From IMG/VR virus record IMGVR_UViG_3300044971_002992, positions 1-38,105 of that record: a stretch of DNA of 38,105 bases; one strand, 5' to 3'. Below, piece by piece: positions 1,880 to 35,354 of the stretch. The stretch comes from a virus. The number at the start of each line of letters is the position of its first letter. Positions within the stretch are counted from its first letter, which is position 1. The notes under the pieces are model-generated. The model ran no database searches. It had not been told where the DNA came from and worked only from the letters and a program-made list of their open reading frames with translations. Both the position numbers and the translations under genes were made by a program.

Positions 1880-2122
1880 TCAGTGAGTAGGTGAGTCACT
1901 ATCGTGCTCGTTGTCATAAGTACGCAGAGAGAAGTAGAACAAGGCAGAGTACACACACGCCACGGGTAGCCAGCCGACATACCACCCACCTAGTGAGGCA
2001 AGCCCTAGTAGTCCCATACCTATCGCCGTGTAGGCACGCACGACAACAGTGCGCCCATCTACCTCAGGCAGTGAGCGTTCAGGTATCGCCCTCTCCCACC
2101 CATCTTCTTGACCGAATGCCAT
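1880..2122 (-). CDS. Small membrane protein, 80 aa, two predicted TM segments
   Basis: An acidic N-terminal tail of about 28 residues is followed by two hydrophobic helices (about 33-50, AIGMGLLGLASLGGWYVGW, and 53-67, PVACVYSALFYFSL) and a short charged C-terminus. It should sit in the cytoplasmic membrane. No family recognised. TAGGGT lies 6 nt upstream of the ATG and could act as an AGGG ribosome site or as a leaderless -10. The low-complexity gap lies directly downstream. Confidence 0.6.
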   Translation of the reverse strand: MAFGQEDGWERAIPERSLPEVDGRTVVVRAYTAIGMGLLGLASLGGWYVGWLPVACVYSALFYFSLRTYDNEHDSDSPTH

Positions 2123-2148
2123 ACCATTACCCTAGTCATTGGTCGCCC

Positions 2149-2161
2149 AAGTGCCACGGGT
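2149..2161 (+). repeat. AAGTGCCACGGGT, copy 1
   Basis: The 14-mer CAAGTGCCACGGGT occurs here and at 3009-3021, each time just before a TAAATAAG/CTAAG box-like sequence. It may be a duplicated regulatory block. Confidence 0.4.
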
Positions 2162-2188
2162 GAGCAGGTAAATAAGTCGCACGAACCC

Positions 2189-2217
2189 TTTACATTGACA
2201 CACCCACCCACTACTGT
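2189..2217 (+). promoter_or_regulatory. Leaderless promoter for 2225
   Basis: TTTACA (2189-2194), 17 bp, TACTGT (2212-2217), then 7 nt to the ATG at 2225. A variant box GTAAATAAGTC lies at 2168-2178 just upstream. No Shine-Dalgarno sequence precedes the ATG. Confidence 0.6.
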
Positions 2218-2224
2218 GAGCGGT

Positions 2225-2410
2225 ATGGATACAACAACGACCCACATACGACCCAGGGTCATTCACGCCCTGCCCCTTGGCAGTGTGGTACAAGTGTTCG
2301 CCAAGAGCACTGATACAGATGGCGTCTCACACACGCAGGTAGACACCATTGAGTGTGTCTCCCCTGAGCAAGCAGTTGCTATTGCGAGGTTCTATGAGGC
2401 GATAGGCTGA
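2225..2410 (+). CDS. Hypothetical protein, 61 aa
   Basis: Starts MDTTTTHIRPRVIHALPLGS and ends in a helix, SPEQAVAIARFYEAIG. No family recognised. Longer in-frame extensions upstream are unlikely because a -35/-10 pair ends 7 nt before this ATG. It is followed after 4 nt by the gene at 2415, so the two are probably co-transcribed. Confidence 0.6.
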   Translation: MDTTTTHIRPRVIHALPLGSVVQVFAKSTDTDGVSHTQVDTIECVSPEQAVAIARFYEAIG

Positions 2411-2414
2411 GCCA

Positions 2415-2594
2415 ATGAGCGAGACATTCCGACTAACAGTCGCAGTGCGCAAGCACAAAGACCTTGACAATCCGACAACAGTTGATGAGGCTGTTGCAAC
2501 TGTGTACAACCTCTTGACACAAGGCGCACTCATAGAAGTAGTGAGCGTGTTGCCTGAACAAAAGAGTAGTGGCAATGAGGTCAAGTGGGGATAG
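2415..2594 (+). CDS. Hypothetical protein, 59 aa
   Basis: Begins MSETFRLTVAVRKHKDLD and ends NEVKWG. It reads as beta strand, helix (DEAVATVYNLLTQG), beta strand (ALIEVVSVLPE), a small ferredoxin-like half-fold. No family recognised. It follows the previous stop by 4 nt with no separate promoter and is likely translated from the same message. Confidence 0.55.
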   Translation: MSETFRLTVAVRKHKDLDNPTTVDEAVATVYNLLTQGALIEVVSVLPEQKSSGNEVKWG

Positions 2595-2623
2595 GTGACA
2601 CGTCTCTCACGCAGTGATACTGT
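2595..2623 (+). promoter_or_regulatory. Leaderless promoter for 2632
   Basis: GTGACA (2595-2600), 17 bp, extended -10 TGATACTGT (-10 at 2618-2623), then 8 nt to the ATG at 2632. No Shine-Dalgarno sequence. Confidence 0.6.
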
Positions 2624-2631
2624 TGTGAGCA

Positions 2632-3003
2632 ATGAACACCTATCTGTTTGTCACGCCCTATGCGGTATTGCGTGAACGCATAAGTGTTGGTGCGCCGTCA
2701 TTCTTTGAGATAGATGAGCGTGAAAGAATGACGAGAATTCACCTCGCAGCACTGTTCACCACCAAAGTGCTTGATGCTTGTCGTGCGCACGACGTAACGC
2801 CGTGGAGCTCCACGGGTGTCCCATTTCAGATGGTATCCCTGATGGCGGAAGCCGAGAGACAGTTAGGTATCGCAACATCGGATACCGAACTGGAACTAAT
2901 GAACAGATGGAAGCGGTACGAAGCGCAGTACATCGCAAGCCAACGCAAGCAGTATGCCTACTCAACATTCATACGAATGACCTCAGGTGCATTCAGTAGA
3001 TAA
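2632..3003 (+). CDS. Hypothetical protein, 123 aa
   Basis: A soluble, mostly helical protein: TRIHLAALFTTKVLDACRAHD (about 33-54), an aromatic loop, then MAEAERQLGI and a long charged helix ending in a Ser-Gly tail. No motif lets me assign a function. A strong -35/-10 ends 8 nt before the ATG, which favours this start. It is followed by the promoter at 3024. Confidence 0.65.
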   Translation: MNTYLFVTPYAVLRERISVGAPSFFEIDERERMTRIHLAALFTTKVLDACRAHDVTPWSSTGVPFQMVSLMAEAERQLGIATSDTELELMNRWKRYEAQYIASQRKQYAYSTFIRMTSGAFSR

Positions 3004-3023
3004 GGCGCAAGTGCCACGGGTTG

Positions 3024-3050
3024 CTAAGTTTGTCCCCAGTGTGGTACGCT
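3024..3050 (+). promoter_or_regulatory. Box-class promoter, leaderless, for 3058
   Basis: CTAAGTTTGTCCCC, 8-bp linker after GTTTGTCCC ending TGG, then TACGCT at 3045-3050; the ATG at 3058 begins 8 nt after the -10. This is a member of the rigid GTCTGAACC promoter class with only half of the upstream box. Confidence 0.7.
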
Positions 3051-3057
3051 CGCAGTT

Positions 3058-3444
3058 ATGAGAGAAAAGAACTATGCAGTGTGTTCGGCGTGCGACACAC
3101 GCACTGAGTGCAACTCGCAACTCATCTACCCTGATAATGGTTGGGTCTTACCATTTGACACATTCGGATACTACGGTGGATTTGACGATATGATGCCTGT
3201 GCTCGCAGGCGACCAACGAACGAGAGAATGGATTTTCTGTCACGATTGCGTTGTGAAGTTTCTCGAGCTTTTCCCCCGACTCGCTGAGAAACTCGGAGCG
3301 AACTGTCACCCTTGCGATGACGAAGTGCCGTGTTGCCGTCACGCTTGGCAAGGCACAGACCTGTTCGGCACTGACATCTATGGTGTCCACGCTCGTACTG
3401 CCTGGCCTGATGGCCAATGGCACGATGACCCGCCGACTACCTAA
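3058..3444 (+). CDS. Cysteine-rich zinc-binding-like phage protein, 128 aa
   Basis: CSACDTRTEC at about 9-18 and CHDC at about 61-64 pair as a likely zinc knuckle; CHPCDDEVPCCRHAWQGTDLFGTD (about 82-105) is a distinctive C-terminal block, followed by GVHARTA and PDGQW. Proteins with NYGGFDD, CHDCVVKFLELFP and CCRHAWQGTDLF motifs recur in actinobacteriophages as hypothetical proteins; I do not know a function. The start is fixed by a -10 ending 7 nt before the ATG, so the message is probably leaderless. Confidence 0.75.
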   Translation: MREKNYAVCSACDTRTECNSQLIYPDNGWVLPFDTFGYYGGFDDMMPVLAGDQRTREWIFCHDCVVKFLELFPRLAEKLGANCHPCDDEVPCCRHAWQGTDLFGTDIYGVHARTAWPDGQWHDDPPTT

Positions 3445-3458
3445 CTACGGGTAGATAA

Positions 3459-3686
3459 CTAGTTTCCCTTGCGTTGTGTGTGTCTGATTGACTCGTAGCA
3501 ACGGAGCATCGCTTTCACTATTGACGTGCACGAACCACTTGCCCAGTAATCACTAGGCGTGCCGTCTTCAAGCGTCGGTACGCCACGTTTCCACGCAGTG
3601 CATTTCCATTGGCCAGCGATGTTCGTTAGTTGGAAGTCCATGCCATTGAGGTGAAACCACTTAGTGAACTGCGTGATGTCACTCAT
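3459..3686 (-). CDS. Hypothetical protein, 75 aa
   Basis: Begins MSDITQFTKWFHLNGMDFQL and continues with beta-strand-like WKCTAW and a C-terminal helix SCTSIVKAMLRCYESI. I chose the internal ATG because GGAGG lies 8-12 nt upstream; a start 48 nt earlier is open but has no ribosome site. It is convergent with the gene ending at 3444. Family unknown. Confidence 0.6.
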   Translation of the reverse strand: MSDITQFTKWFHLNGMDFQLTNIAGQWKCTAWKRGVPTLEDGTPSDYWASGSCTSIVKAMLRCYESIRHTQRKGN

Positions 3687-3757
3687 ATCGTTCCCGTCCT
3701 CCGTGCTTGTGGAATGTCCGTAAAGTACTGGCATCTCGTCAGCATACCGCTAATCAG

Positions 3758-3821
3758 CGGGGCTCCCGGCAGGGTGCAAGGCTGGGGCTTGCTGTGGCGT
3801 GGGGTGGCAGGTAGATAAGTC
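3758..3821 (+). repeat. Partial hairpin module (right half) with box
   Basis: CGGGGCTCC at 3758-3766 and GGTGGCAGGTAGATAAGTC ending at 3821 are the right half of the repeated intergenic module. The left arm is not recognisable here. It sits upstream of the promoter for 3888. Confidence 0.55.
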
Positions 3822-3832
3822 GGGAAATACTT

Positions 3833-3859
3833 GTAAGTCTGTACCACGTGTGATACGGT
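3833..3859 (+). promoter_or_regulatory. Box-class promoter for 3888
   Basis: GTAAGTCTGTACC, 8 bp, TACGGT (3854-3859) with extended TGA; 28-nt leader with GAAAGGG ribosome site. Confidence 0.7.
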
Positions 3860-3887
3860 GAGTGTGTCGCCAAACGAAAGGGAAAAA

Positions 3888-4166
3888 ATGGCTACTACAC
3901 ACCACACCAACCGAAACCGAGCGCAAGACGTGACAGTAATGCGCACTCTCGCTGTCCTGTCGTGGGCGTTCCCGTTGTTCGGGGTTGCTCTGCTGGCAGT
4001 GTCTTACTACTCACACGCTCTGTACGACTTGCTCGTGGGCGGTGTGTTCGCAGTGTTCGGGTCAATCGGCGCAACGCTGATGACAATCGCAATGAGCAAC
4101 GCACTTGCCGAAGAGCGCAACCACGAGCGCCAAGCCCACCCGTCCTATCCGTTCCGTAATCGCTGA
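3888..4166 (+). CDS. Small membrane protein, 92 aa, two TM segments
   Basis: A charged N-terminus of about 17 residues precedes two hydrophobic segments (about 20-40, TLAVLSWAFPLFGVALLAVSY, and 47-69, LLVGGVFAVFGSIGATLMTIA), then a polar charged tail rich in Glu, Arg and His. It should be an inner-membrane protein with both ends on one side. The ATG at 3888 follows GAAAGGG; an upstream in-frame ATG at 3858 overlaps the -10 box and is rejected. It is probably co-transcribed with 4181, 14 nt downstream. Function unknown. Confidence 0.7.
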   Translation: MATTHHTNRNRAQDVTVMRTLAVLSWAFPLFGVALLAVSYYSHALYDLLVGGVFAVFGSIGATLMTIAMSNALAEERNHERQAHPSYPFRNR

Positions 4167-4169
4167 AAG

Positions 4170-4180
4170 GTAGATAAGTC
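4170..4180 (+). promoter_or_regulatory. Box inside the ribosome-binding region of 4181
   Basis: GAAAGGTAGATAAGTCATG: the box GTAGATAAGTC fills the spacer between AAAGG and the start codon, so protein binding or RNA folding at the box could affect translation of 4181. Confidence 0.6.
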
Positions 4181-4879
4181 ATGACAACCGCAACCGACAC
4201 CAAAACCGCCGAGGTCATTGCTGAAATGCTGACCGAGAATACGGGTAGGAGTATGCTTGATAGTGGCGACTACTACGGCAGACACTACGAGAAAAACGCA
4301 GGCAAGGTGCTTGCTGATTTTGAGAGCGAACCGCAAGCGTGGGCGAGTTCCTACGGCGTGACGCTTTCCGTGTTTCACTATCTCACGGCGCGCGTCAAGT
4401 ATGACGACTCACTCAATGCTGAGTGGGATTCGTTCTGCTCTCACAATGCTGATGACGGGTACTTCTCACTCATGCAGGATTTCGCCAATGAGCGCGATTC
4501 GTCGGCGCATACGTGGAACACCTACAACGGGGACGATTCACTCTCGCAAACCTTGCAGGGTGTCACGTTCGCAATCGGTGAGCGTGTGTACGCGCTGATT
4601 CAGATTCACGGGGGTTGTGACGTTCGCGGTGGCTATACGCGTCCGCGCGCATTCCGCATTGAGATGAGTGACGCGTCATACTTTCCATGCGATAACGATT
4701 CCTATCACGTCACGTGTGACAGTGGCGAAGAGACTCACGGACTCTCGTGGTACGGCGAGTGGATTTCGTGGGAAGGTTCTTGCGCTGACGATTCGTCCTA
4801 TCCCGAGTACACGGGTGAAGGCATGAAGTGCGCGCAGTGTGGCGCAGGCATGACCGTACACGCGCCCGAGCCCTACTAG
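4181..4879 (+). CDS. Conserved phage-type hypothetical protein, 232 aa
   Basis: The N-terminus carries a TENTGRSMLDSGDYYGRHYEKN block (about 17-39) that I associate with a family of hypothetical proteins in actinobacterial phages. The middle is acidic and aromatic; the C-terminus ends with CAQCGAGM (about 217-224), one CxxC knuckle. A central GGYTRPRAFRIEMSD segment and repeated acidic/Tyr stretches suggest a beta-rich fold. Function unknown. The start follows AAAGG with the box in the spacer. The stop codon lies inside the stem of the terminator just downstream. Confidence 0.7.
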   Translation: MTTATDTKTAEVIAEMLTENTGRSMLDSGDYYGRHYEKNAGKVLADFESEPQAWASSYGVTLSVFHYLTARVKYDDSLNAEWDSFCSHNADDGYFSLMQDFANERDSSAHTWNTYNGDDSLSQTLQGVTFAIGERVYALIQIHGGCDVRGGYTRPRAFRIEMSDASYFPCDNDSYHVTCDSGEETHGLSWYGEWISWEGSCADDSSYPEYTGEGMKCAQCGAGMTVHAPEPY

Positions 4880-4906
4880 CAAGCGTTCCCTATCTCCGCT
4901 TGCTAG
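4876..4906 (+). terminator. Hairpin terminator of 4181
   Basis: CTAGCAAGCG and CGCTTGCTAG form a perfect 10-bp stem with an 11-nt loop; the stop codon TAG of the gene is in the left arm. No U-tract follows. Confidence 0.6.
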
Positions 4907-4926
4907 TCCTGCCCCTGCCCTGCTTA

Positions 4927-5029
4927 GTAGATAAGTGGGGTGGGGGCTAGGTCTTATCTACCTACTTGCATTCTCTGCCCGAGAGCAACCGAAGCGCGAA
5001 CGCGCGAGGGCGCTAGCAGCCGGGGCTCC
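4927..5029. repeat. Box inverted pair plus partial hairpin module
   Basis: GTAGATAAG at 4927-4935 pairs with CTTATCTAC at 4953-4961. It is followed by CCGAGAGCAACCGA (repeated near 20917) and the orphan right arm CGGGGCTCC at 5021-5029. It lies between convergent genes, where a bidirectional terminator would be useful. Confidence 0.5.
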
Positions 5030-5042
5030 TGAGTGAGTAGTG

Positions 5043-6293
5043 CTACCTCGTCACTGTCACGATGCGAGGCTTATCTACCACTTCATCTGTTGCGCTTCCA
5101 CCTCTGCGGTGCGCATTTATCCAGCGAGCACGGTGCATCTGTTGCGATGGATACCACTGATTACGCCAGTGTCCACGCACAAGGTGTGCGAGCGATACCT
5201 TGCGCCCTGTTGCTGAATCACTATCACCGTAGAGCGCCCTGCGTAGTTCTAGCGTGGTGATACTGTCAGTGTTCACGCGTCCAGCCCTTGCGCCCCTGCG
5301 AGAGAACGGGCGAGGCACACGGGTTGTTTCAACATCTACGTACTCATTCATCAAACGCAACAGTGCAACGATGAATCTACGAGACCTGCGATAACGGTCA
5401 AAACTTGACTGATTCATTGCTTCTTCAAACGAGTCATTTTCAAGTTGAAAACCATCTTCTCCATACATAAAGTAGTAACTGTCAATCAGATTCATTTTCA
5501 ACGAGATGAGTGGGTTTCTTACGGCAAGTGTCAAACCGTCAATCTCTGAGCTGACAATACGCCCAAACACACCAACGATGATTGCGTTCATCGGGTGCTC
5601 TGTTCCGTCCTCTTCAACAAAACGTGCGTGATTCAATTCCTCCTTCTCGTAGTGTTCCAACTCAAGTTGGAATTTGTATTCAGGACTAGCAGTGCCATAC
5701 TGCTTCGCTACCGATTCAAGCACGTGAGGATAGATTGACTCGCAATCGCCCCACGAAAATGCAACGATTTCGTAAACGTCTACGCCATCAAGGTATCCGT
5801 CCTCTGTCTGCGTGTACTTACGGGTTCCCTCAACGGTTCCACCGTATTGACGAACCTTATCTACTATTTCGTCAATGTCATCCGATAAGCATCCAGCGTG
5901 AACCCTCACCTGGATTGGGCGTTCAAGGAAAACCATTGCACACGGCGTGTAGACATCAGTGCGAAAAAGAACTTCATCAGGCATTGACTCCGATGCTGTG
6001 TGCACCAATTCGTGCAGTTCTTCCGATAGGTACACGGTGTCTGCACGGGAAATGATTTCATCATCCGTCAAACGCCACACGTTATGAGCAACGCGCGAGT
6101 CTGCGAACTGCTTTTCTCTGTTCTCCAATGTAACTACCGACTCAAACAATCCATTCTGCTGAGCAGTCCACTGAGATGCGTGCAATAGTCGGTCTGCGCT
6201 CGGGTGGCCTTTGCGCCACACCAGGTATTCAGTCTGCATTTCATGTGCCTCTAACGGCGAGGTGAACCCCTTTGGGCTTTCAGTACCAGTCAT
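5043..6293 (-). CDS. Large conserved hypothetical protein, 416 aa
   Basis: No catalytic motif recognised. The C-terminal 60 residues, with VRGHWRNQWYPSQQMHRARW, then IxxHxRG and VDKPRIVTVTR, match in style a C-terminal block I associate with hypothetical proteins on actinobacterial plasmids and prophages. The N-terminal two-thirds is acidic, with an alpha/beta pattern. Two boxes (5070 and about 5858) are in-frame as Val-Asp-Lys. The ATG lies 6 nt after TATTAT of a good sigma-A-like promoter, so the message is probably leaderless. A DNA- or RNA-linked role is only a guess from the basic C-terminus. Confidence 0.75.
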   Translation of the reverse strand: MTGTESPKGFTSPLEAHEMQTEYLVWRKGHPSADRLLHASQWTAQQNGLFESVVTLENREKQFADSRVAHNVWRLTDDEIISRADTVYLSEELHELVHTASESMPDEVLFRTDVYTPCAMVFLERPIQVRVHAGCLSDDIDEIVDKVRQYGGTVEGTRKYTQTEDGYLDGVDVYEIVAFSWGDCESIYPHVLESVAKQYGTASPEYKFQLELEHYEKEELNHARFVEEDGTEHPMNAIIVGVFGRIVSSEIDGLTLAVRNPLISLKMNLIDSYYFMYGEDGFQLENDSFEEAMNQSSFDRYRRSRRFIVALLRLMNEYVDVETTRVPRPFSRRGARAGRVNTDSITTLELRRALYGDSDSATGRKVSLAHLVRGHWRNQWYPSQQMHRARWINAHRRGGSATDEVVDKPRIVTVTR

Positions 6294-6299
6294 GTCACC

Positions 6300-6328
6300 A
6301 TAATAAACAATGCAAAGAGAAAAATCAA
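6300..6328 (-). promoter_or_regulatory. Sigma-A-like leaderless promoter for 5043-6293
   Basis: On the minus strand TTGATT (6323-6328), 17 bp, TATTAT (6300-6305), then 6 nt to the ATG at 6293. This is the best consensus promoter in the window. Confidence 0.75.
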
Positions 6329-6334
6329 CTCTTC

Positions 6335-6471
6335 GACTTATCTACCTGTCCACCCCAGCTCACCCTGGTCAGCGGGGCTCCTGCTGGACTTATCTACCCA
6401 TAGATAAAGGGGGCGAACCGATTGGCTCACCCCCTCAATCAGGGAACCCTCGCTTGGCGAGACTTATCTAC
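6335..6471. repeat. Cluster of three minus-oriented boxes and an orphan CGGGGCTCC
   Basis: GACTTATCTAC at 6335-6345, 6387-6397 (as GGACTTATCTAC) and 6461-6471, with TAGATAA at 6401-6407 facing the second, and CGGGGCTCC at 6373-6381. The last box contains the stop codon of 6468-6767. Confidence 0.6.
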
Positions 6472-6767
6472 ACGCTGTCTGTGTGCTGTGTGATTGCGCC
6501 ATCAACGGCTCGCTGAGCGTTCCGAAGTCCTGCGGTCTTGCAGGTCGTGGCAAGCAGTTGAGCGATTGTCTGTTGCAGACAAGATGCGTAGAAGTCGGCC
6601 ATCGCTGGTGTCTGGGTGACCTTCTCAAACGCGTCCTGTGCTTGCAGGGCGAACTGGTGGAACTCACGGATGATGTGACCATCGAACATGTCGATTTCTC
6701 GTGCGAGGTATGCGCTGAGAAGCGATGGCATCGCCTCTGCTTTCACTGGGATGATTGGTCTGGACAT
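6468..6767 (-). CDS. Hypothetical helical protein, 99 aa
   Basis: Begins MSRPIIPVKAEAMPSLLSAYLA and is almost wholly helical (IREFHQFALQAQDAFEKV, then CLQQTIAQLLATTCK). No family recognised. The stop codon TAG is the TAG of a box (TGTAGATAAG on the minus strand). Transcription is from the box-class promoter at 6815-6845 with a 47-nt leader carrying GAAAGGGG before the ATG. Confidence 0.65.
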   Translation of the reverse strand: MSRPIIPVKAEAMPSLLSAYLAREIDMFDGHIIREFHQFALQAQDAFEKVTQTPAMADFYASCLQQTIAQLLATTCKTAGLRNAQRAVDGAITQHTDSV

Positions 6768-6814
6768 GGTGACCCCTTTCGGTCGGTTCGGGGGCGTTGG
6801 TGCCTCCTATCAAC

Positions 6815-6845
6815 ACTGTACCACATACGGTTCAGACTTATCTAC
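6815..6845 (-). promoter_or_regulatory. Box-class promoter for 6468-6767
   Basis: Minus strand: full box GTAGATAAG joined to GTCTGAACC, 8 bp, TACAGT (6815-6820). Confidence 0.8.
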
Positions 6846-6878
6846 CCGTTCCCCGTGCGCCCAACCCACCCCCAAGGG

Positions 6879-6932
6879 GGAGCCCCGCCTGAAATCATCT
6901 GCCTGAAAGGGGGTACTTTCAGATAGATTTAT
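6879..6932. repeat. Orphan GGAGCCCCG, CTGAAA hairpin and TAGATTTATCTA palindrome
   Basis: GGAGCCCCG at 6879-6887, CTGAAA/TTTCAG hairpin at 6903-6922, and the palindrome TAGATTTATCTA just after it, upstream of the DUF932 gene. The palindrome is a symmetric version of the box, as at 34071 and 24259, and hints at a dimeric binder. Confidence 0.5.
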
Positions 6933-6960
6933 CTACAAGCAAATAGCGAACGGAGACGAA

Positions 6961-7986
6961 ATGTCACACGACATAGAAATCAACGAAGACGGCACAGCCA
7001 GAATGGCTTACGCCGACAGGGAAATCCCTTGGCATCGCCTTGGAACACCAATGAAGGGCTTGCAGACGGCAGAGGCAATGCTCGCCGCCGCCCAGGCCAA
7101 CTTTGATGTCGTGACCACACGGGTAGCAGTGTGTGACGATAATGGCGAAGTAATCAGAAACTCTGATGGCTCGCTCGTTCTAGTACCAGACAGTAGAGCC
7201 ACAGTGCGTGTCAATGGTGACGGCACGTTCAATGGTCTTGCAACGGTTGGCACACGCTACGTGGTGCAGCAAAATCGTGAATGTCTTGACTATGCGCTCG
7301 CTATCGCAGGAGCATCTACGGGTGATGCAGTAGTAGATACTTGCGGTGTTCTCAATGGTGGCAGAGAGTTCTTCTCATCTCTTGACCTAGGTGCGCTTGT
7401 CATTGACCCAATGGGCGTGAATGACCAGATTGAGCGTTATCTACTAGTTCGCAATGGGCACGACGGAAAGACGGCGATTACGTTCGCAAACACAAGTATT
7501 CGCGCCGTATGCAAGAACACTGTTGTTGCAGGTCTTAGCAGTGCACGGAGAGTGTTCACTGCTCGTCATACACGCAACGCCGAGCGTGCGATTGAAGAAG
7601 CAAACAGTGTGCTCGAAATCTCCAATGAATGGGCAAAAGCGTTTACAGCAACTGCTGAGAAACTTCTGTCAATCCCCGTTGCGCCTGGCTCAAAAGTACT
7701 GAACGAAACACTGAATGCAGTATTTCCACTGGAAACAAGTGCAACAGAGCGTCAGAAGCGCAACAGAGACAATGTGCTTTCACTTGTTCGTGCGGTGTAT
7801 GACAACGACAACAACGCAAAGGGCTATGGGTACAACGGGTGGTCACTAGTGAATGCTATTGGTGAATACCTTGACCACTATCGTGATGCAACAGTGACAG
7901 AGCGTGCGCTTGCGTCAATGGATAACAATTCTTGGGTGACTCGTTCAAAGATAAAAGCTCAGGATTTCCTCTTGTCAAGTCGTTGA
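6961..7986 (+). CDS. DUF932 phage/plasmid-like protein, 341 aa
   Basis: Full-length member of the DUF932 (TIGR03299-type) family found in phages and plasmids. Typical features are the early EIPWHRLGTPM segment (about 22-33), the NGLATVGTRYVVQQNRECLDY region (about 90-110), and the middle block with KTAITFANTSIRAVCKNT (about 169-187). The biochemical role is unknown; family members often neighbour DNA-metabolism genes, as here with a SNF2 helicase. GGAGA lies 5-6 nt upstream of the ATG. No box-class promoter is visible; a symmetric box palindrome lies about 30 nt upstream. Confidence 0.9.
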   Translation: MSHDIEINEDGTARMAYADREIPWHRLGTPMKGLQTAEAMLAAAQANFDVVTTRVAVCDDNGEVIRNSDGSLVLVPDSRATVRVNGDGTFNGLATVGTRYVVQQNRECLDYALAIAGASTGDAVVDTCGVLNGGREFFSSLDLGALVIDPMGVNDQIERYLLVRNGHDGKTAITFANTSIRAVCKNTVVAGLSSARRVFTARHTRNAERAIEEANSVLEISNEWAKAFTATAEKLLSIPVAPGSKVLNETLNAVFPLETSATERQKRNRDNVLSLVRAVYDNDNNAKGYGYNGWSLVNAIGEYLDHYRDATVTERALASMDNNSWVTRSKIKAQDFLLSSR

Positions 7987-8007
7987 TAACAATTCCCTGT
8001 ATCATTG

Positions 8008-8018: not shown

Positions 8019-8034
8019 GACATAGCGAGGCCTA

Positions 8035-29961: not shown

Positions 29962-29978
29962 AAGCCTCGCTAGGAGTG

Positions 29979-30190: not shown

Positions 30191-30210
30191 CAAAAAAAGA
30201 GGTATTAGAA

Positions 30211-30450
30211 ATGAACACGCAAGCAACTACCAAAGAAGAACGAGAAGAAGAACTGCTTGATGAACTCTGTGAAACGATTTCCAAACTCGTTCGCTACTAC
30301 TCGGGCATGCTCGCAGAAATCACGGAAAGCAGATACAGCATTGAGAAGTCAGTCAAGGATTACGACACGCTCACTATGGGCGAGTATGACTTACTGGCAG
30401 TGTTGGGCGACTACATGAACCTTGATGACGATTACGCAGAGAACGAGTGA
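30211..30450 (+). CDS. Acidic helical hypothetical protein, 79 aa
   Basis: TTKEEREEELLDELCETISKLVRYYSGMLAEITESRYSIEKSVKDYDTLTMGEYDLLAVLGDYMN is almost all helix with a heptad-like pattern and acidic ends. No family recognised. Start follows AGAGGTATTAGAA. The next gene begins 12 nt after its stop. Confidence 0.6.
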   Translation: MNTQATTKEEREEELLDELCETISKLVRYYSGMLAEITESRYSIEKSVKDYDTLTMGEYDLLAVLGDYMNLDDDYAENE

Positions 30451-30461
30451 GAGGGACACTC

Positions 30462-30776
30462 ATGGCACTTATCTACCTACTACTGGCTCTATCCGTCATG
30501 GCTCTGACATGCGTTCTTGTGACCTACACGCTCTGTGTGTGGGATGACCGGCACACGGCTCCACAGACACTCACAGAGGCTCGCTGGCAGGCTACGAGAG
30601 ACAGGCTCTCATGGCTCGTCAGTGCCGATGTGTGGCTCGGTCTATCGCTCGCCACACGACCCACAGAATCGCAAGGCTCACGACTTCCACGAGAGACAGA
30701 CTCCAAGACACCACCTCGGCAGAGCGCAGAATCCGTGCGCCAGTCCACAGCACCGCCGAGTTCACCACGACGATAA
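30462..30776 (+). CDS. Single-TM protein with basic tail, 104 aa
   Basis: MALIYLLLALSVMALTCVLVTYTLCVW is one TM helix (about 3-26), followed by a helical Arg-rich stretch and a Ser/Arg/Pro-rich tail. ATG 30462 follows GAGAGGGACACTC. Codons 3-6 (LIYL) come from a minus-oriented box lying inside the coding start. It is coupled to 30211. Function unknown. Confidence 0.55.
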   Translation: MALIYLLLALSVMALTCVLVTYTLCVWDDRHTAPQTLTEARWQATRDRLSWLVSADVWLGLSLATRPTESQGSRLPRETDSKTPPRQSAESVRQSTAPPSSPRR

Positions 30777-30808
30777 ACAGAAAGCCGACAAATGCCTGCG
30801 CTCCGACT

Positions 30809-30853
30809 GGAGCCCCGCTGTGCTTTTGCACCTTCCCTCGGGTTGGAGCCCCG
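30809..30853 (+). repeat. Two direct GGAGCCCCG arms
   Basis: GGAGCCCCG 30809-30817 and 30845-30853 without a right arm, the second followed by GTAGAT; a remnant of modules. Confidence 0.5.
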
Positions 30854-30950
30854 GTAGATTTCGGGTCAGTTATCGCACGGGGGAAACTCCCGAAGGCATT
30901 TCCATAATGTGGTTTTCTTGACGGCATGATGTCTCCTTACGGGTAACCAA

Positions 30951-30978
30951 TTGACGGTGGTGGAAGACCACGTACTAG
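30951..30978 (+). promoter_or_regulatory. Second dispersed motif, copy e, with possible -10
   Basis: TTGACGGTGGTGGAAGACCA, with TACTAG 16 bp after TTGACG (30973-30978). As a promoter it would fire into the 3' end of the minus-strand gene at 30975. Confidence 0.5.
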
Positions 30979-31349
30979 GCGATGTTTAGTTTCTTGATAA
31001 TTTGGTGAACTCGCTGCCGAGACAAATCAAACTCATCCGCAATTTCTCTGAGTGATTTTCCGGCGGCACGCATATTGCGAATTGTTTCATTTCTTGAAGC
31101 ATCAGTTGCCGGCCCTGGCTGGAACGGACCCCACTGCCAACCTGAAATCTGTTCCAGGCGTGAGATGCGAGAATCAGAAAGAATTTGCTTGCGGTATCTC
31201 TGACGGATGTAACCAACCCAAGCTCCCAGTGAGATGTCAGAATTTTCGATTTTTTCGACATAAGTTGCCGGGATTTTCGAATTACCTTCTCGGGCGATGT
31301 ACTGCTCGAGAGCCTGTATATAAATGTTGAATTTTGTGGTGTTGTCCAT
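30975..31349 (-). CDS. Helicase-associated domain fused to HTH, 124 aa
   Basis: The N-terminal half (NIYIQALEQYIAREGNSKIPATYVEKIENSDISLGAWVGYIRQRYRKQILSDSRISRLEQISGWQW, about 6-72) follows the helicase-associated (HA) domain pattern (LGxWVxxIRxxYRxxxLxxxRxxxLxxxxGWxW). The C-terminal RNMRAAGKSLREIADEFDLSRQRVHQIIKKL (about 92-122) is a sigma-region-4-like HTH. A DNA-binding regulator is inferred. I chose the ATG at 31349; one at 31373 is also open and no ribosome site is decisive. Direct repeats of ATACTAG overlap the start. Confidence 0.7.
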   Translation of the reverse strand: MDNTTKFNIYIQALEQYIAREGNSKIPATYVEKIENSDISLGAWVGYIRQRYRKQILSDSRISRLEQISGWQWGPFQPGPATDASRNETIRNMRAAGKSLREIADEFDLSRQRVHQIIKKLNIA

Positions 31350-31430
31350 ACTAGGAATACTAGACGAACACATGTTCGCTTGTCACTAAACCTTTTGATT
31401 TTGAATTTACTGGAGTGATTAATTTGTAGG

Positions 31431-31459
31431 TTGCAATTATCTGCGGTGGTGGATAAGGT
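31431..31459 (+). promoter_or_regulatory. Leaderless promoter for 31466 carrying a motif variant
   Basis: TTGCAA (31431-31436), 17 bp containing CTGCGGTGGTGGA, TAAGGT (31454-31459), then 6 nt to the ATG. Confidence 0.65.
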
Positions 31460-31465
31460 AGTGCC

Positions 31466-31639
31466 ATGGGACTATTAGGAACTGTTGTTACATACAAGTT
31501 CGGCAAGTCACGTGGCGCCAAAGCTGAGCGCAAACGCGCACGTAGCCAGAAGCAGGACACGCGTAATCCAGACTGCATCAATTACCAGAGTTTCTGTAAG
31601 AACTATGGAAGCTGTGGCGGGCAGCGCTGCGAGTACTAA
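31466..31639 (+). CDS. Small basic cysteine-containing protein, 57 aa
   Basis: MGLLGTVVTYKFGKSRGAKAERKRARSQKQD, basic, then CINYQSFCKNYGSCGGQRCEY with four Cys (CxnCx5CxnC). It resembles small hypothetical proteins of phages in which a Cys-rich tail follows a basic helix; a zinc or redox role is only inferred. Two ribosomal signals are possible: AAGG at 9-12 nt, or leaderless from TAAGGT. Confidence 0.6.
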   Translation: MGLLGTVVTYKFGKSRGAKAERKRARSQKQDTRNPDCINYQSFCKNYGSCGGQRCEY

Positions 31640-31654
31640 ACCAAGGGGAACCAA

Positions 31655-31912
31655 ATGAGTAAACATCAATACACCGTCCAGGTCTTGGTCGGCATAAGCG
31701 TCATAGCAGAATCTCCAGAAGAGGCTATGTCCGCTGCCGTGAAAGAGATGACAGAAATCCTTGAGGACCAGGACATTAATGCTGTCGAAAGGTTTTCACA
31801 CCCATGGGTTACGGGACCTGCTTTTTGTGACCCAAGGTATTGGGGTCACAGCGCTATCCCTGGATTCATGGTCTTTAAAAACAAAGAAATCAAAGAGGAG
31901 GCAACCATATGA
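31655..31912 (+). CDS. Hypothetical protein, 85 aa
   Basis: YTVQVLVGISVIAESPEEAMSAAVKEMTEILEDQDINAVERFS is a beta-helix pattern (a strand, then a long helix); the rest is polar with GPAFCDPRYWGHSAIPG. It ends with a charged tail. No family recognised. ATG follows AAGGGGAACC. Its TGA overlaps the next ATG (ATGA). Confidence 0.65.
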   Translation: MSKHQYTVQVLVGISVIAESPEEAMSAAVKEMTEILEDQDINAVERFSHPWVTGPAFCDPRYWGHSAIPGFMVFKNKEIKEEATI

Positions 31913-32229
31913 AAGCTGGAAGAATTATGGACTTTTCGCCGTTCAATGACGGGAACGTCTACCACATCGACATCACCATCGAAACTAGTCACGAGAATTA
32001 TGAAAAGATTCGAATCACTCATGACAGCGAAGAAGACTTCGAACTTGGCGTGCGCTACTGGGGGGCAATCTTCATGGCCAGCGAAACAGTTCATGAAAGT
32101 GGACTTTTTTCACCAGATGAGCTTGAGGCGGACGAGCCGCAGGGGCCGCGTGGATTTCCAAAATTTGGACAATCTCGCGATGAGCCATCTAGTCCATTTT
32201 TCAACTTCGGCATTATCGGGCGGAAGTGA
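31909..32229 (+). CDS. Hypothetical protein, 106 aa
   Basis: MKAGRIMDFSPFNDGNVYHIDITIETSHENYEKIRITHDSEEDFELGVRYWGAIF is beta-rich, followed by an acidic and then a Pro/Gly/Ser-rich disordered tail (QGPRGFPKFGQSRDEPSSPFF). No family recognised. AGGAGG lies 5-11 nt before the ATG. Translationally coupled to 31655. A CCGGCCGGCTGCGGC block lies just after the stop. Confidence 0.65.
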   Translation: MKAGRIMDFSPFNDGNVYHIDITIETSHENYEKIRITHDSEEDFELGVRYWGAIFMASETVHESGLFSPDELEADEPQGPRGFPKFGQSRDEPSSPFFNFGIIGRK

Positions 32230-32264
32230 CCGGCCGGCTGCGGCATGTTTAAAAAATCAAAAAT

Positions 32265-32296
32265 TTGACACATCTACCATCGAGCTCACGTAGAGC
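32265..32296 (+). promoter_or_regulatory. Possible promoter/operator before 32329
   Basis: A perfect TTGACA at 32265-32270 lacks a good -10 at 16-18 bp. The block ATCGAGCTCACGTAGAGC follows, closely repeated at about 34998 after the promoter there (ATCGAGCTCAATAGAGC); it can fold as a GCTC/GAGC hairpin or bind a dimer. Confidence 0.4.
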
Positions 32297-32328
32297 TACT
32301 CGAGACCTACAACAGAAAAAGAGACAAA

Positions 32329-32799
32329 ATGAGCAAAGACCAGGACCCAATCAATCGTCGAATCAGTACAGAAAAGACGGAATTCACCCAGATGCTGGAC
32401 GCCTCTGGTTTGCCTGCGGAAGTTGTGCATGAAGTGAAGAGTCAACTCAAGGACATTGATAGCGGGGAAAGCAATATTGTTTTTCTGTACACCGATGGAC
32501 CGTACGTCGTGACCGGCATTCACGTCCCAGCCTCTGCCCTGGATGATAAGCCGGGCCCAGTGCTCATGCGCGGGGGTGGCGAGAATTCTATTATCGCAGC
32601 ATTTTCTCGCGACTTCATTATTGAATCCTTGAAGCAAATTGATATTCAGGAGTTTCTTGATGAAGAGAGAGCGGGGCTCCAACCGCAGGGCGAAGACCTG
32701 TGGGTGGCTGAGTTGGAGAAGATGGCCGAGATGGTTAAGATGGAGCTAGCGATTAATCCGCCCGAGAAATGGGACGACTTCCCGATGGGGGACAGGTAG
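32329..32799 (+). CDS. Hypothetical acidic protein, 156 aa
   Basis: Starts MSKDQDPINRRISTEKTEFTQMLDASGL; helical N-terminus, a beta-rich centre (SNIVFLYTDGPYVVTGIHVPASAL), then RDFIIESLKQIDIQEFLDEERAG and an acidic C-terminal helix. No family recognised. It ends with stop TAG inside a box (GGTAGATAAG), which leads straight into the next start 5 nt later. Confidence 0.65.
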   Translation: MSKDQDPINRRISTEKTEFTQMLDASGLPAEVVHEVKSQLKDIDSGESNIVFLYTDGPYVVTGIHVPASALDDKPGPVLMRGGGENSIIAAFSRDFIIESLKQIDIQEFLDEERAGLQPQGEDLWVAELEKMAEMVKMELAINPPEKWDDFPMGDR

Positions 32800-32827
32800 A
32801 TAAGATGTTGACGGTGGTGGAAGACAT
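32796..32827 (+). repeat. Box plus second motif, copy g, at a start codon
   Basis: GGTAGATAAGATG then TTGACGGTGGTGGAAGACAT: the motif forms codons 2-7 (Leu-Thr-Val-Val-Glu-Asp) of 32805. It has no -10, so it is not a promoter here. Confidence 0.6.
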
Positions 32828-33500
32828 AAACCCACAGCAGCCAGACCGCTGGCAGGATGCTGCCAAGATTGTGGTTTGTCAGATTTTTGACTCGGTAGAT
32901 AAGGTTTTGGGCCACGTCTCCACGTTTTCAAATTCTGAAGAAAATCGACGAATTGTGAGCTCAGCCGGCGTCGACAGTATTGATGAAAAACTGAACAATA
33001 TTCTCGAAGGCCTCCACCTCCTGGACATTCAGTTCGAGGGAATGCTCAATAATCTGAAGTGGTTCTCAAGTGACTCGATGTACTGGGTTGAAGAATGGCG
33101 AATTCTTGGCTCGATTGCTGCGGCTGCCGGCATTCAAAATAGCGATTTAATGAAGAATGCACTCGACGCCCAGATGGCAAAACATCCAGATTTTGGAAAT
33201 TCTGCATCGGCCGGCGTCCTGGATAGCTGGATGCTCCGCGAAGAAATTACACAAACCCTGATTCGTAAGCAGACTGACTACGGTCCAGAGAACATCAGTC
33301 GGTTTGGCCTGGACGGTCTACTCGTGCGCTGCCATGACAAGATTGCCAGACTGAAAAATCTTCACCTCTTCCGTGGCGGGGAGTCGGCTAACGAAAGTGT
33401 TACCGACACGTACCTAGACATCATTGGGTACTCCGCCATCGGTATGATGTGGGAGAGGGGCTGGTTCCTCCTACCGCTAATCAATGACTCAAGGAAGTGA
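32805..33500 (+). CDS. Nucleotide-modification-associated (Nmad1/DUF1599) protein, 231 aa
   Basis: The C-terminal half has REEITQTLIRKQTDYGPENISRFGLDGLLVRCHDKIARLKNLHLFRGGESANESVTDTYLDIIGYSAIGMMWERG (about 149-224). This is the DUF1599/Nmad1 signature (KxxDYGPENI, GxxVRxxDKxARLxNL, ESVxDTxLDIxGYA), a MazG-related all-helical fold found in phages with modified or hydrolysed nucleotides. The N-terminal 140 residues are unfamiliar. Start ATG 32805 comes after AGG in a box. In-frame box at 32896 (DSVDKV). Confidence 0.85.
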   Translation: MLTVVEDINPQQPDRWQDAAKIVVCQIFDSVDKVLGHVSTFSNSEENRRIVSSAGVDSIDEKLNNILEGLHLLDIQFEGMLNNLKWFSSDSMYWVEEWRILGSIAAAAGIQNSDLMKNALDAQMAKHPDFGNSASAGVLDSWMLREEITQTLIRKQTDYGPENISRFGLDGLLVRCHDKIARLKNLHLFRGGESANESVTDTYLDIIGYSAIGMMWERGWFLLPLINDSRK

Positions 33501-33520
33501 TTGACGGTGGTGGAAAGCCA
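33501..33520 (+). repeat. Second dispersed motif, copy h
   Basis: TTGACGGTGGTGGAAAGCCA just after the stop of 32805-33500, without a convincing -10; the imperfect repeat AGGCCAACCTAATAGGCC follows. Confidence 0.6.
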
Positions 33521-33567
33521 CAAAGGTTAGGCCAACCTAATAGGCCATTACTAGAAATGAGAAAATC

Positions 33568-33768
33568 GTGATTACTGAACGTATTAAGAAGACGTGCCCG
33601 CGTTGTGCAACAAATTTGATTCCAAATAACGAACAATGGGGGATGTACGTCGGAGCTCTCTCCAGGGCCGACAATAAAACGGAAATTTGTTCCTCCTGCG
33701 GCCAGGACGAAGCACTCAAGGATTACTTCGACGGCGGATGTGAACCGGTCACTATTTGGCCTATTTGA
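33568..33768 (+). CDS. Zinc-ribbon phage protein, 66 aa, GTG start
   Basis: CPRCATNLIPNNEQWGMYVGALSRADNKTEICSSCGQDEALKDYFDG has CPRC at about 10-13 and CSSCG at about 41-45, one zinc ribbon. The GALSRADNxTEICSxCGxDEAL core is frequent in actinobacteriophage genomes. Likely nucleic-acid or protein binding; no defined role. Start GTG 33568 with a weak AGAAATGAG upstream. Confidence 0.75.
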   Translation: MITERIKKTCPRCATNLIPNNEQWGMYVGALSRADNKTEICSSCGQDEALKDYFDGGCEPVTIWPI

Positions 33769-33825
33769 TTTTTTCGCCGGCATCAAATAAAATAAGACCT
33801 CAATTAACTACTAAAGGATTGGTCA

Positions 33826-34071
33826 ATGACACTCGACTATTTAAAGTCAAGTAAACACTGGCTCGTTTGTCACTGCGGCAACGAACCCCACATCAATGGT
33901 TTCTACGCGTGCCTTGAAGACGGCACCCTAGTGGAACCCGACATTCATGGGCCATGGGATGGACATCTCTATCTATGCATGGGCTGCGGCGCCATCTATG
34001 ACGCCGAGAGCTTTGAGCAAAAGGGACAAATTGGGGCAGCCGCCCTTGCCGCCCAGGCAGCCAGCTTCTAG
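33826..34071 (+). CDS. Zinc-binding-like small protein, 81 aa
   Basis: LVCHCGNEPHINGFYAC at about 13-29 and YLCMGCGAIYDAESF at about 49-63 form two knuckles. PHINGFYAC with LCMGCGAIYD recurs in phage hypothetical proteins. An Ala-rich C-terminus ends at the box-like symmetric site TAGATAAATCTA, which supplies the stop codon. ATG follows AAAGGATTGGTC. Confidence 0.7.
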   Translation: MTLDYLKSSKHWLVCHCGNEPHINGFYACLEDGTLVEPDIHGPWDGHLYLCMGCGAIYDAESFEQKGQIGAAALAAQAASF

Positions 34072-34080
34072 ATAAATCTA
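34071..34080. promoter_or_regulatory. Symmetric box TAGATAAATCTA
   Basis: A palindromic version of the box, overlapping the stop codon of 33826-34071, also found at about 6923 and 24259. It is a more symmetric site than the asymmetric box. Confidence 0.45.
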
Positions 34081-34098
34081 ACCAGAAAGGCTCAAAAC

Positions 34099-34269
34099 AT
34101 GCCAGACCCATATGACTTCGACTACAGGCCAGACCCTGACCTCGAAATGCTTGAGCATCTCGAACGTTATTACGACGGAGTAGCTGACGAGCTCATCTGG
34201 CAGCACGAGCAAAAAATGAAAAAAATCGAGCAGGCTGTGGCCGGCGAAGAAGACCTCAAGGGGGAATGA
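34099..34269 (+). CDS. Acidic helical protein, 56 aa
   Basis: MPDPYDFDYRPDPDLEMLEHLERYYDGVADELIWQHEQKMKKIEQAVAG then an acidic tail. Nearly all helix. GAAAGG lies 7 nt upstream. Its TGA overlaps the ATG of 34266 (ATGATG). No family recognised. Confidence 0.65.
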   Translation: MPDPYDFDYRPDPDLEMLEHLERYYDGVADELIWQHEQKMKKIEQAVAGEEDLKGE

Positions 34270-34643
34270 TGAAAAAGTGGGAAATTTTTGTACTGGCGCT
34301 GCACGCGCTAGCTTACGTACTTTGGTTTTGGGATTCGAAAACAATCGAGGCCTGGAAAACCAGACGTCGTTACTGGGCAGCTCTCGAAGAAGAGAAGAAA
34401 TACAGTGATGGATTTATGGATGAAATCTATGACTACATCGAACTTCATGAGAGTGCACATAAGGAAGAACGAGAAAAGCAAAAAAAGCAGGCAATGGACC
34501 GGCATCCGACTAGTTATAAACCGGACAATGAGACCTTGGCCCGGCTAGCTCGAGACGAGATGTCGAAAAAAAGAAAGAATCCGCCGCGCAACCGGCCGGC
34601 CAATATGGATTTCTGGCCCATGTTCGACGAGTGGGACAAGTAG
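34266..34643 (+). CDS. Membrane-anchored charged helical protein, 125 aa
   Basis: MMKKWEIFVLALHALAYVLWFW is a TM or signal-anchor helix (about 5-22), followed by a long charged helix (EEEKKYSDGFMDEIYDYIELHESAHKEEREKQKK, coiled-coil-like) and a basic Pro/Asn tail. Cytoplasmic side most likely carries the tail. It starts within the previous stop; AGGGGGA is just upstream. No family recognised. A box follows the stop at 34641. Confidence 0.65.
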   Translation: MMKKWEIFVLALHALAYVLWFWDSKTIEAWKTRRRYWAALEEEKKYSDGFMDEIYDYIELHESAHKEEREKQKKQAMDRHPTSYKPDNETLARLARDEMSKKRKNPPRNRPANMDFWPMFDEWDK

Positions 34644-34683
34644 ATAAGTCTGTGGCCGGCGAAGCTGGGCTATGTTTGCCGGC

Positions 34684-34758
34684 ATGAACATGACGAAGAT
34701 TTTCAATAAACTACGTACCGCTGCAGTAGCTGTCTGGCTCAGGCTGAAGGGCTACTGA
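34684..34758 (+). CDS. Possible miniprotein, 24 aa
   Basis: MNMTKIFNKLRTAAVAVWLRLKGY is basic and amphipathic. There is no Shine-Dalgarno sequence or clear -10, so it is the weakest call on the plus strand here; it may be chance. Confidence 0.2.
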   Translation: MNMTKIFNKLRTAAVAVWLRLKGY

Positions 34759-35354
34759 GAAAGCGGGTCCGGGGAGCTTAGGATGGCCACCTACCAACCC
34801 ATCCCAAGCTCAACCCGGCACCCTGCCCCTCTACGAAGCGAAAGGGGGAACTTCGTATCGGAGCCCCGCTAAAATACCACACATGTAACACGTGAATGGT
34901 GTAAATAGTTCTAATACTGTAACAAAATCCGTCGCCGGCAAAAAAATCTTACGGGAGGTAGTTGACGGTGGTGGAAGAGTCGCTATAGTGTTTCCTCATC
35001 GAGCTCAATAGAGCGAGAGAATGATTCATTCGGTGTAGGCATACACCCACCACCTAGAAAAAAACGACCACCAAATCCTGGTGGGTTCTGGCATGCCCAA
35101 ATGCAAAAGTATTTGCAAAGGTTCCCCCCAGACCCCCCTCCAAAGTAAGTTCTTTACTTCTTCTGCTTTGTATTCTCTTCTGTAGATGAGACAGATTCTT
35201 TTCCAAGAATTACTCATCAAGTTAAGTAAGAGAATTAAGTTTCTAACAGGGGTTTAAGGTGAAGTCTGTTCAAAATTCAAAATGGATAAATTCAAACTTT
35301 GGACTCAATCCAAATACAATATCTGATTGACGCTGGCGGAAGAACGGGGATAGA
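34759..35354 (+). other. 600-base AT-rich non-coding region before the replication genes
   Basis: No gene seen. It holds an orphan GGAGCCCCG (34860-34868), a strong promoter (34962-34989), the hairpin CCACCA/TGGTGG near 35070, a C-rich run near 35127, and an AT-rich stretch at about 35150-35320 with short AAGTAAG/AATTAAG repeats. Position next to the replisome-organiser gene fits an origin of replication, but no iterons are clear. Confidence 0.45.
34962..34989 (+). promoter_or_regulatory. Sigma-A-like promoter with motif copy i
   Basis: TTGACG (34962-34967), 16 bp including GTGGTGGAAGA, TATAGT (34984-34989). The nearest gene is about 360 bp away, so the transcript has a long leader or is a non-coding RNA. 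The block ATCGAGCTCAATAGAGC lies at +8. Confidence 0.7.

Follow-up and report, generated by a model that had tools for sequence, protein, structure and literature searches.

A stretch of viral DNA of 38,105 nucleotides (IMG/VR record IMGVR_UViG_3300044971_002992, positions 1 to 38,105; referred to here as the window) contains 80 exact copies of the 9-mer GTAGATAAG. With confidence just above even, we propose that a phage-encoded regulator binds this box as a directional DNA site and thereby silences the early region in a stoperator-like manner. The box outnumbers every other 9-mer of the window, with 46 copies on the plus strand and 34 on the minus strand by exact word count; a hand count in an earlier note on this DNA had given 45 and 35 and placed the number far above chance, in agreement with the control described here. 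When up to one mismatch is allowed, 107 matches are found, compared to 4.75 ± 2.24 (maximum 13) in 100 dinucleotide-preserving shuffles. The consensus, AGGTAGATAAGTC, is asymmetric and approximately 13 bp long. The extensions GTAGATAAGTC (41 copies) and GGTAGATAAGT (46) and the variants GTAAATAAG (6), GTAGAAAAG (3), GTAGATAAC (9) and TAGATAAATCTA (3), all listed in the earlier note, are present at these exact counts. A palindromic operator was rejected on account of the asymmetric consensus. Over-even spacing of the boxes was rejected as well (gap variation of 0.86-1.55 versus ~0.98 for random placement), and so was a known RNA family, the RNA family search of the window having yielded just a tRNA.

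Distribution of the box in the phage and its relatives

The window is 99.99% identical, in reversed orientation, to positions 27444-65548 of a 151,107-base IMG/VR phage contig, G001. A third contig, 19.7 kb long, shares 99.6% identity with G001. In total, G001 holds 85 boxes, 83 of them within a single 40 kb region (23.2-62.6 kb). Relatives were retrieved with the DUF932, VWA and XRE proteins as baits, and their most over-represented words are variants of the box, a feature that goes beyond the earlier note. The lineages differ in the box core (for example GTAGATAAG, ACTAGATAAG, TGTAGGTAAG and AATAAAGATAG). Eight box types were found altogether, including CTAATAGATAACT (G013, G018 and G019), ACTAGATAAGTC (G014, G015 and G017), AGAGTAGATAACT (L119 and four further loci), GGTGTAGGTAAGTC (L120 and L125), GAATAAAGATAGCG (L126), GAGTAGATAAGTC (L127) and AATAGATAAGTC (L128-L130). 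Seven long contigs (145-170 kb) carry 85, 68, 45, 78, 98, 68 and 43 boxes, mostly confined to a single region; in G015 and G029 the box region runs across the contig ends. The backwards word, used as a control, occurs 0-19 times in the seven long contigs (19 in G028). The ten box sequences compared below represent eight lineages, because G013/G018 and L120/L125 each share one box type. G018, as well as the records G020, G021 and G022 discussed later, is a fragment, and G014 was covered to 60 kb of its 134 kb (36 kb for the gene-gap placement counts). The word ACGGTGGTG is among the commonest 9-mers of L075 and L076, where the window box is rare.

The box-bearing phages are large, uncultivated and probably phages of Actinomycetota. 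The terminase of G001, which lies outside the window, matches best those of psiM2 (~44% identity) and Gordonia phages (~41%). No close isolate was detected in the phage collection searched, DNA searches of which matched solely at the tRNA gene, and the AAA ATPase of the window has three phage matches there at 28-31% identity. A DUF932 search of bacterial genomes located L197, a contig of 10.6 kb in a metagenome-assembled genome of Actinomycetota, with a DUF932 protein 76% identical and 16 TAGATAA words (3.1 expected). This contig suggests Actinomycetota as the host phylum, but it could be phage DNA that entered the bin by chance.

Placement and orientation relative to genes

Box placement was evaluated with a curated gene list for the window and with a conservation-based gene list for the ten sequences. 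In the window, 66 of the 80 boxes lie outside the curated genes, though free DNA makes up 30% of the 2-35 kb interval. The earlier note had staked its proposal on intergenic enrichment in relatives, and the boxes are indeed enriched in gene gaps in 10/10 sequences from the eight lineages, with p values from 8e-4 to 2e-18. Orientation follows transcription. In tandem gaps of the ten sequences, 231 boxes are co-oriented with transcription and 53 opposed, after 11 boxes without flanking genes on both sides were set aside. The bias is near-absolute in tandem gaps of 60 bp or less (n = 127), where a sense box is found in 42 and an antisense box in one. Among the 231 co-oriented boxes, 78 are within 20 nt of the stop codon upstream of them and 119 precede the next start by 0-99 nt, 24 of the 231 being within 0-19 nt of it.

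Inside the coding sequences of the ten sequences, 86 boxes are sense and 42 antisense. It should be mentioned that these two counts probably understate the polarity, because the conservation list omits lineage-unique genes and seems to hold spurious antisense open reading frames (ORFs) in L119, L120, L125 and L127 (coding fraction 0.82-0.93). All of the places that the earlier note had assigned to the box in the window, namely promoters, ribosome sites, stop codons, palindromes or hairpins and gene interiors, were recovered (Table 1). The tracking of transcription by box orientation and the mostly sense orientation of in-gene copies are additional to that description.

Promoters and hairpins

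A promoter-like pattern, AAGTCTGAACC-N5-TGGTACNGT, has 22 matches in the window, 20 of which are 31-78 nt ahead of a start codon. A stricter pattern applied to nine sequences gave 79 matches, and at 62 of them a box covers the -35 side or lies no more than ~40 bp upstream of it (hand-summed). The window promoters (n = 19) comprise 11 with an overlapping box in one register and 8 with an upstream box at varying distance (one has both); one has neither. The overlapping register occurs 0 or 1 times in seven other sequences. A fixed spacing between box and -10 element does not hold at every copy, and most boxes are away from promoters. Helical phasing of the promoter-upstream boxes is weak (best p 0.056, from 45 hand-entered distances).

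The frequency of boxes over or upstream of the -35 side (62/79) is what would be expected if the box were a promoter or activator element assisting a phage or host factor in initiating early transcription. The records G021 (L107-L108) and G022 (L109-L110) are consistent with such a role, since their top motif, with 49 and 36 sites respectively, is near-always locked to a -10-like GGTATAG or GGTATAAT; G016 and G020 (L099-L104, L111-L112) have a similar, weaker promoter-linked motif. However, spacing is variable except where the window and G014 have the overlapping register, the phasing is weak, and an activator leaves no place for in-gene boxes or for boxes in gaps without a recognised promoter. 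We therefore regard an activator as improbable. The lineage-specific promoter words of G021, G022, G016 and G020 adjoin GGTATAG, GGTATAAT or GGTATGA, and the upstream half of this family's promoter type seems to differ from lineage to lineage. TAGATAA-type words are not among the enriched words of these four records, three of which are fragments.

The second recurrent setting is a two-way hairpin, AGCCCCG...CGGGGCT. Around 81 such hairpins, with up to two mismatches in the box and both orientations treated alike, a sense box lies within 140 bp downstream at 62 and an antisense box at 2; the backwards word on the same side gave 3 sense and 0 antisense (0-3 overall). A polymerase passing a hairpin would thus usually meet a sense box next. 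On the upstream side, a sense box is found at 53/81 and an antisense box at 37/81. For the 13 hairpins of the window, the corresponding numbers are 13 sense and 1 antisense downstream, and 7 sense and 11 antisense upstream, with the outward-pointing boxes most often 36-39 bp away.

These data bear on a role at the RNA level, in which GUAGAUAAG at gene junctions would be read by an RNA-binding protein or nuclease of the phage, which would set mRNA processing, stability or translation. Short gaps are presumably transcribed, and a bias of 42 to 1 in them suits such a role, as do the co-oriented boxes within 20 nt of an upstream stop codon (78/231), the sense orientation of in-gene copies and the 53 of 81 hairpins whose upstream sense box would be part of the transcript. 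In contrast, the boxes at 62/79 promoters stand upstream or over the -35 side, outside the transcript of the promoter; the sense boxes past 62/81 hairpins would be missing from terminated transcripts; and an antisense box is found upstream of 37/81 hairpins. On balance we consider an RNA-level role unlikely, while giving it more weight than the other alternatives discussed here. The 42 to 1 bias makes the choice between an elongation block and RNA action directly testable.

Boxes within coding sequences

By the curated list, 14 boxes of the window lie within genes, 12 of them sense. All 12 read V-D-K, which corresponds to the sole stop-free sense frame. For one copy, at 27984, the V-D-K belongs to the Walker B stretch of the AAA protein and is conserved there independently of the box.

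The gene of the VWA protein allows the boxes to be compared across lineages at aligned positions. In the linker of this gene, the exact box core of the own lineage is present in 10/10 box sequences, spread over ~25 alignment columns. Near the start of the gene an exact core is present in 8/10, with those of L120 and L125 about ten codons earlier and none in L126 and L127; the alignment place of the codon-17 box of the window reads I-D-N, L-D-K, V-D-N or I-D-K in relatives. Over the gene as a whole, the residues at the boxes vary with the box of the lineage (V-D-K, I-D-N, L-D-K, V-D-N, I-D-K, G-V-G-K and N-K-D). A search of the VWA gene of G016, G021 and G022 with the box words found one in 0/3. 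The VWA protein sequence follows the box, and not the reverse, a sign of selection for the box itself.

A selfish or mutational repeat that spread without function could account for the high copy number and for the hairpin modules of recurring geometry in the window. It fits poorly with versions that differ among lineages yet are retained in one gene linker, where the encoded amino acids adjust to the box, and the flanks of the box copies are generally unrelated. We regard this as the least probable of the explanations considered.

Candidate binding protein

The best candidate for the box binder is a 68-residue XRE protein with an HTH_3 domain. HTH_3 scores above the cut-off in 7/7 records with TAGATAA-type boxes and in 0/4 others (G016, G020, G021 and G022, three of them fragments). 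The AlphaFold2 model of the protein has a five-helix fold with a predicted local distance difference test (pLDDT) value of 94.6, and its PDB sequence matches include SinR, C.AhdI and the 434 repressor. A 228-residue protein encoded beside it has the same presence pattern. For this neighbor, Pfam, PHROG and PDB searches gave no match, as did the phage collection (zero matches); its model is a confident mixed alpha/beta fold (pLDDT 88), with which a PDB fold search found nothing at E ≤ 0.001. Within 330 nt upstream of the XRE gene, a sense box and zero antisense boxes are found at 10/10 loci, and the same holds for the 228-residue protein gene, the box of L128 being the XRE box itself.

Of the G001 ORFs, 90 are matched in six other box genomes, and 18 of these are unmatched in G016, including the XRE and 228-residue protein genes. 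Pfam scans, which covered ten small proteins among these 18 ORFs in addition to the XRE and 228-residue proteins, detected no other DNA-binding domain. The earlier note had proposed one factor for the whole set of boxes. This idea is plausible, and by presence and absence the XRE protein is the best of the candidates that it named, although covariation did not single it out. The XRE protein, perhaps acting with its 228-residue neighbor, is therefore put forward here as a candidate binder and not as a result, because covariation failed to favor it and because near-identical XRE proteins are paired with differing box cores (see below). Another locus, L154, encodes an XRE protein 50% identical and lacks a match to the 228-residue protein; it carries 17 sites of another word, TTGGGACGCT followed by GTGAGA, some as inverted pairs.

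Proposed mode of action

In the mechanism that we favor, a phage protein would bind the box as a DNA site. At boxes over promoters it would hinder initiation, and at those in gene junctions, beside hairpins or within long genes it would stop polymerase arriving from the 5' side. The action would resemble that of the stoperators of cluster A mycobacteriophages, but would be denser and limited to one region. Antisense boxes between gene ends and hairpins could serve as guards against transcription from the opposite side. Early shut-off in lytic growth appears to be a likelier purpose than prophage immunity, because the genes of the one region that holds the boxes are small and non-structural and because no lysogeny genes are apparent.

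Several observations weigh against this mechanism or parts of it. An integrase was not found in searches for a tyrosine integrase (0/6) or a serine recombinase (0/10), so the known prophage role of stoperators is not supported here. For antisense boxes located between a gene end and a hairpin, the mechanism has no place other than as the guards mentioned above. A sense box within 110 bp downstream is present at 2/79 recognised promoters, where a roadblock would also be expected. An RNA-level role would account equally well for the 42 to 1 bias, and the sense boxes upstream of 53/81 hairpins weaken one argument against it. Among the best 80 of 138 loci retrieved with the XRE bait, 27 show the TAGATAA box family; nearly all 27 are among the closest XRE matches, the exceptions in the closest 29 being L131 and L141.

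The remaining points concern the binder. In a Mantel test, the correlation of box distance with XRE distance is r 0.18 with L126 and 0.49 without it, no better than that of seven other genes of the region (0.40-0.67 with L126, 0.45-0.63 without). L120 and L127 differ in their box cores though their XRE proteins are 89% identical, and the DRKTVNRIEN stretch is also found in XRE proteins of contigs without such boxes.

It is tempting to consider a wider scenario, which we hold to be possible but on the doubtful side. Large, apparently integrase-free phages of Actinomycetota may have independently evolved a stoperator-like system of far higher density, in which one-way, protein-dependent stops shut the early program in lytic growth. 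In this scenario, the existence of eight box types would mean that specificity changed at least seven times, each change accompanied by a rewriting of the box sets, copies within coding sequences among them. Recognition might require two proteins (the 68-residue XRE and the 228-residue protein) instead of one two-domain repressor.

Other features of the window

The coordinates of the boxes, hairpins and genes of interest are collected in Table 1. Two of the neighboring genes, one for a histone H1-like protein and one for a ParA-like protein whose promoter has a box, bring to mind a partition, nucleoid or replication site (parS-like or an origin) for a ParB-like or histone-like phage protein. 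This is highly improbable. A ParA match is absent in G013, G018, G015 and the first 60 kb of G014 despite their full box sets, and ParA is present in G021 and G022, whose motifs differ; parS-like sites were accordingly rejected, as the ParA distribution does not track the box. Orientation along transcription and placement at gene junctions would also be unexpected for a partition or replication site. DnaA boxes were rejected too, the consensus TTATCCACA being at 0 in the ten box sequences tested; it occurs 10, 8 and 4 times in G016, G021 and G022.

A helix-turn-helix protein with a weak sigma-70 region 4 match (positions in Table 1) is conserved also in G016, G021 and G022, which have other motifs. 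It is a possible reader of the early promoters.

Table 1. Positions of boxes, associated elements and neighboring genes in the window
Feature	Position	Strand	Basis or remark
Region with all 80 exact GTAGATAAG boxes, consensus AGGTAGATAAGTC	2996..34648	both (46 +, 34 -)	word count, shuffles; first copy 2996, last 34640
Box at ribosome site between two genes (stop 4166, start 4181)	4170..4178	+	curated genes
Three sense in-gene boxes (8786, 9881, 10175) of helicase gene 8471-10387	8786..10183	-	curated genes
Histone H1-like HC2 protein, lysine- and alanine-rich	11356-11748	-	Pfam E 2.4e-10
Starts of the 13 window hairpins	12594, 13249, 13738, 15055, 16313, 17332, 18362, 19257, 20171, 21041, 22074, 24187, 27400		
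Box beside stop codon, overlapping AAGTCTGNNCC-N5-TGGTA promoter-like match	14043..14075	+	pattern match
Inverted box pair, + gene end versus opposite-strand ORF of doubtful reality	14635..14675	both	box positions, gene list
Composite module: variant box (-) 16264, hairpin 16313-16344, box (+) 16385	16264..16393	both	hairpin and box search
Box 5 nt past stop codon, overlapping AAGTCTGNNCC-N5-TGGTA promoter-like match	16706..16738	+	pattern match
Two-way hairpin AGCCCCG...CGGGGCT, outward boxes 38 bp off on each side	17332..17363	both	hairpin and box search
Box at ribosome site of gene 22313-22699	22302..22310	+	curated genes
Box beside stop codon, overlapping promoter-like match ahead of ParA-like gene	22700..22732	+	pattern match
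ParA-like gene, box over promoter and another at end	22759-23340	+	also matched in L119, G021, G022; unmatched in several other relatives
Box between ParA-like gene (stop 23340) and next ORF (start 23378)	23370..23378	+	curated genes
Variant box GTAGATAAC ~30 nt ahead of XRE start, 4 nt past stop of preceding gene	25145..25153	+	curated genes
68-residue XRE/HTH_3 protein, best candidate box binder	25175..25381	+	HTH_3 pattern, AlphaFold2, PDB sequence matches
Box upstream of 228-residue protein gene, overlapping -35 side of promoter-like match at 25430	25424..25432	+	pattern match
228-residue protein, gene beside XRE gene, same presence pattern	25488..26174	+	homology searches, structure model
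In-gene box, codon 17 of VWA-protein gene 28405-29961, reads S-V-D-K-S	28456..28464	+	VWA alignment
Second VWA-gene box, in linker where the other nine box sequences have theirs	29200..29208	+	VWA alignment
Second promoter-like class TTGACGGTGGTGGAA, four copies	30951, 32808, 33501, 34962	+	two followed by -10-like TACTAG or TATAGT
Helix-turn-helix protein, helicase-associated domain, weak sigma-70 region 4 match	30975-31373	-	domain scan
tRNA-Thr(tgt) gene	37170-37244	+	tRNA search
WhiB-like regulator	37458-37826	-	PHROG 472

Comparison with known repeat systems

The earlier note had likened the box to the stoperators of cluster A mycobacteriophages, and the comparison proves apt, as orientation, gene-gap placement and promoter overlap all match. 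Phage D29, known to carry stoperators, was used as a control, with an L5 stoperator consensus and sites scoring at least 11 of 13. Of the 30 sites found, 8 that lacked a gene on either side or both were left out of the orientation count; the 22 that can be oriented relative to genes point 19 to 3 one way. Gene gaps hold 21/30 sites, often directly past stop codons. D29 shows the same kind of orientation and placement signature as the boxes.

In the cited passages, cluster A stoperators (L5, Bxb1, D29) number more than twenty per genome (PMC9283540) or up to 30 (PMC6550527). The box shares with the stoperators described there an asymmetric site of ~13 bp, many copies, a location at promoters and in short gene gaps, orientation with transcription, versions that differ among related phages, and a site upstream of the repressor gene (here that of the candidate XRE protein). 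Unlike the stoperators of those passages, it has another sequence, 80 copies in 32 kb and confinement to one region. The phages differ as well, being 145-170 kb, uncultivated and probably of Actinomycetota, with no integrase detected. An L5-type repressor was not detected in a search without a positive control, the Pomar16 repressor query giving 0/9 genomes at E ≤ 1. In profile comparison with the L5-type repressor, the 228-residue protein reached 0.1% probability and the XRE protein 56%, the latter aligned across 23 helix-turn-helix columns only. As for a temperate-phage trait (integrase or parABS), the window has the ParA-like gene, which is unmatched in several box relatives, and the integrase searches are those given above. 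Membership among the cluster A stoperators is not claimed, since no L5-type repressor was detected and no integrase was found, and binding to the box is putative.

A second comparison made in the earlier note, with the start-associated sequences (SAS) of cluster K mycobacteriophages, is only partly borne out. According to the cited passages, SAS are asymmetric 13 bp repeats, mostly in one orientation and in non-structural genes, which lie a few bases from start codons and contain the ribosome-binding AGGAG (PMC3203893, PMC12699233). The box is likewise asymmetric, mostly in one orientation and among non-structural genes. However, its consensus is without AGGAG, and many boxes adjoin stop codons or lie within genes or upstream of promoters. 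The SAS fit less well because the boxes are not generally tied to the last bases ahead of starts (24/231).

The 17 bp repeats of cluster O, as described in the cited passage (PMC4351075), number more than 30 and occupy both gene gaps and genes, in phages with no integrase from which no stable lysogens were recovered. Many copies in gaps and genes, and an integrase that was not found, are common to both systems. The cluster O repeats have dyad symmetry, so that orientation is without meaning, in contrast to the asymmetric and strongly oriented box. Literature searches by motif letters and for stoperators in uncultivated phages, judged by titles, returned nothing on such boxes among the papers listed.

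Taken together, the boxes resemble stoperators in site pattern; their sequence, density, region and phage family set them apart, as probably does the protein. The cited passages describe stoperators for temperate cluster A mycobacteriophages (PMC9283540, PMC6550527). If the proposed mechanism is correct, the existence of a second system, of higher density, in large and unrelated phages would make orientation-dependent transcription blocks a more general means of phage control, and a stoperator-like function would be separable from prophage immunity. The eight natural versions of the box provide a series for asking how a regulator and its dozens of sites, some of them in genes, change together.

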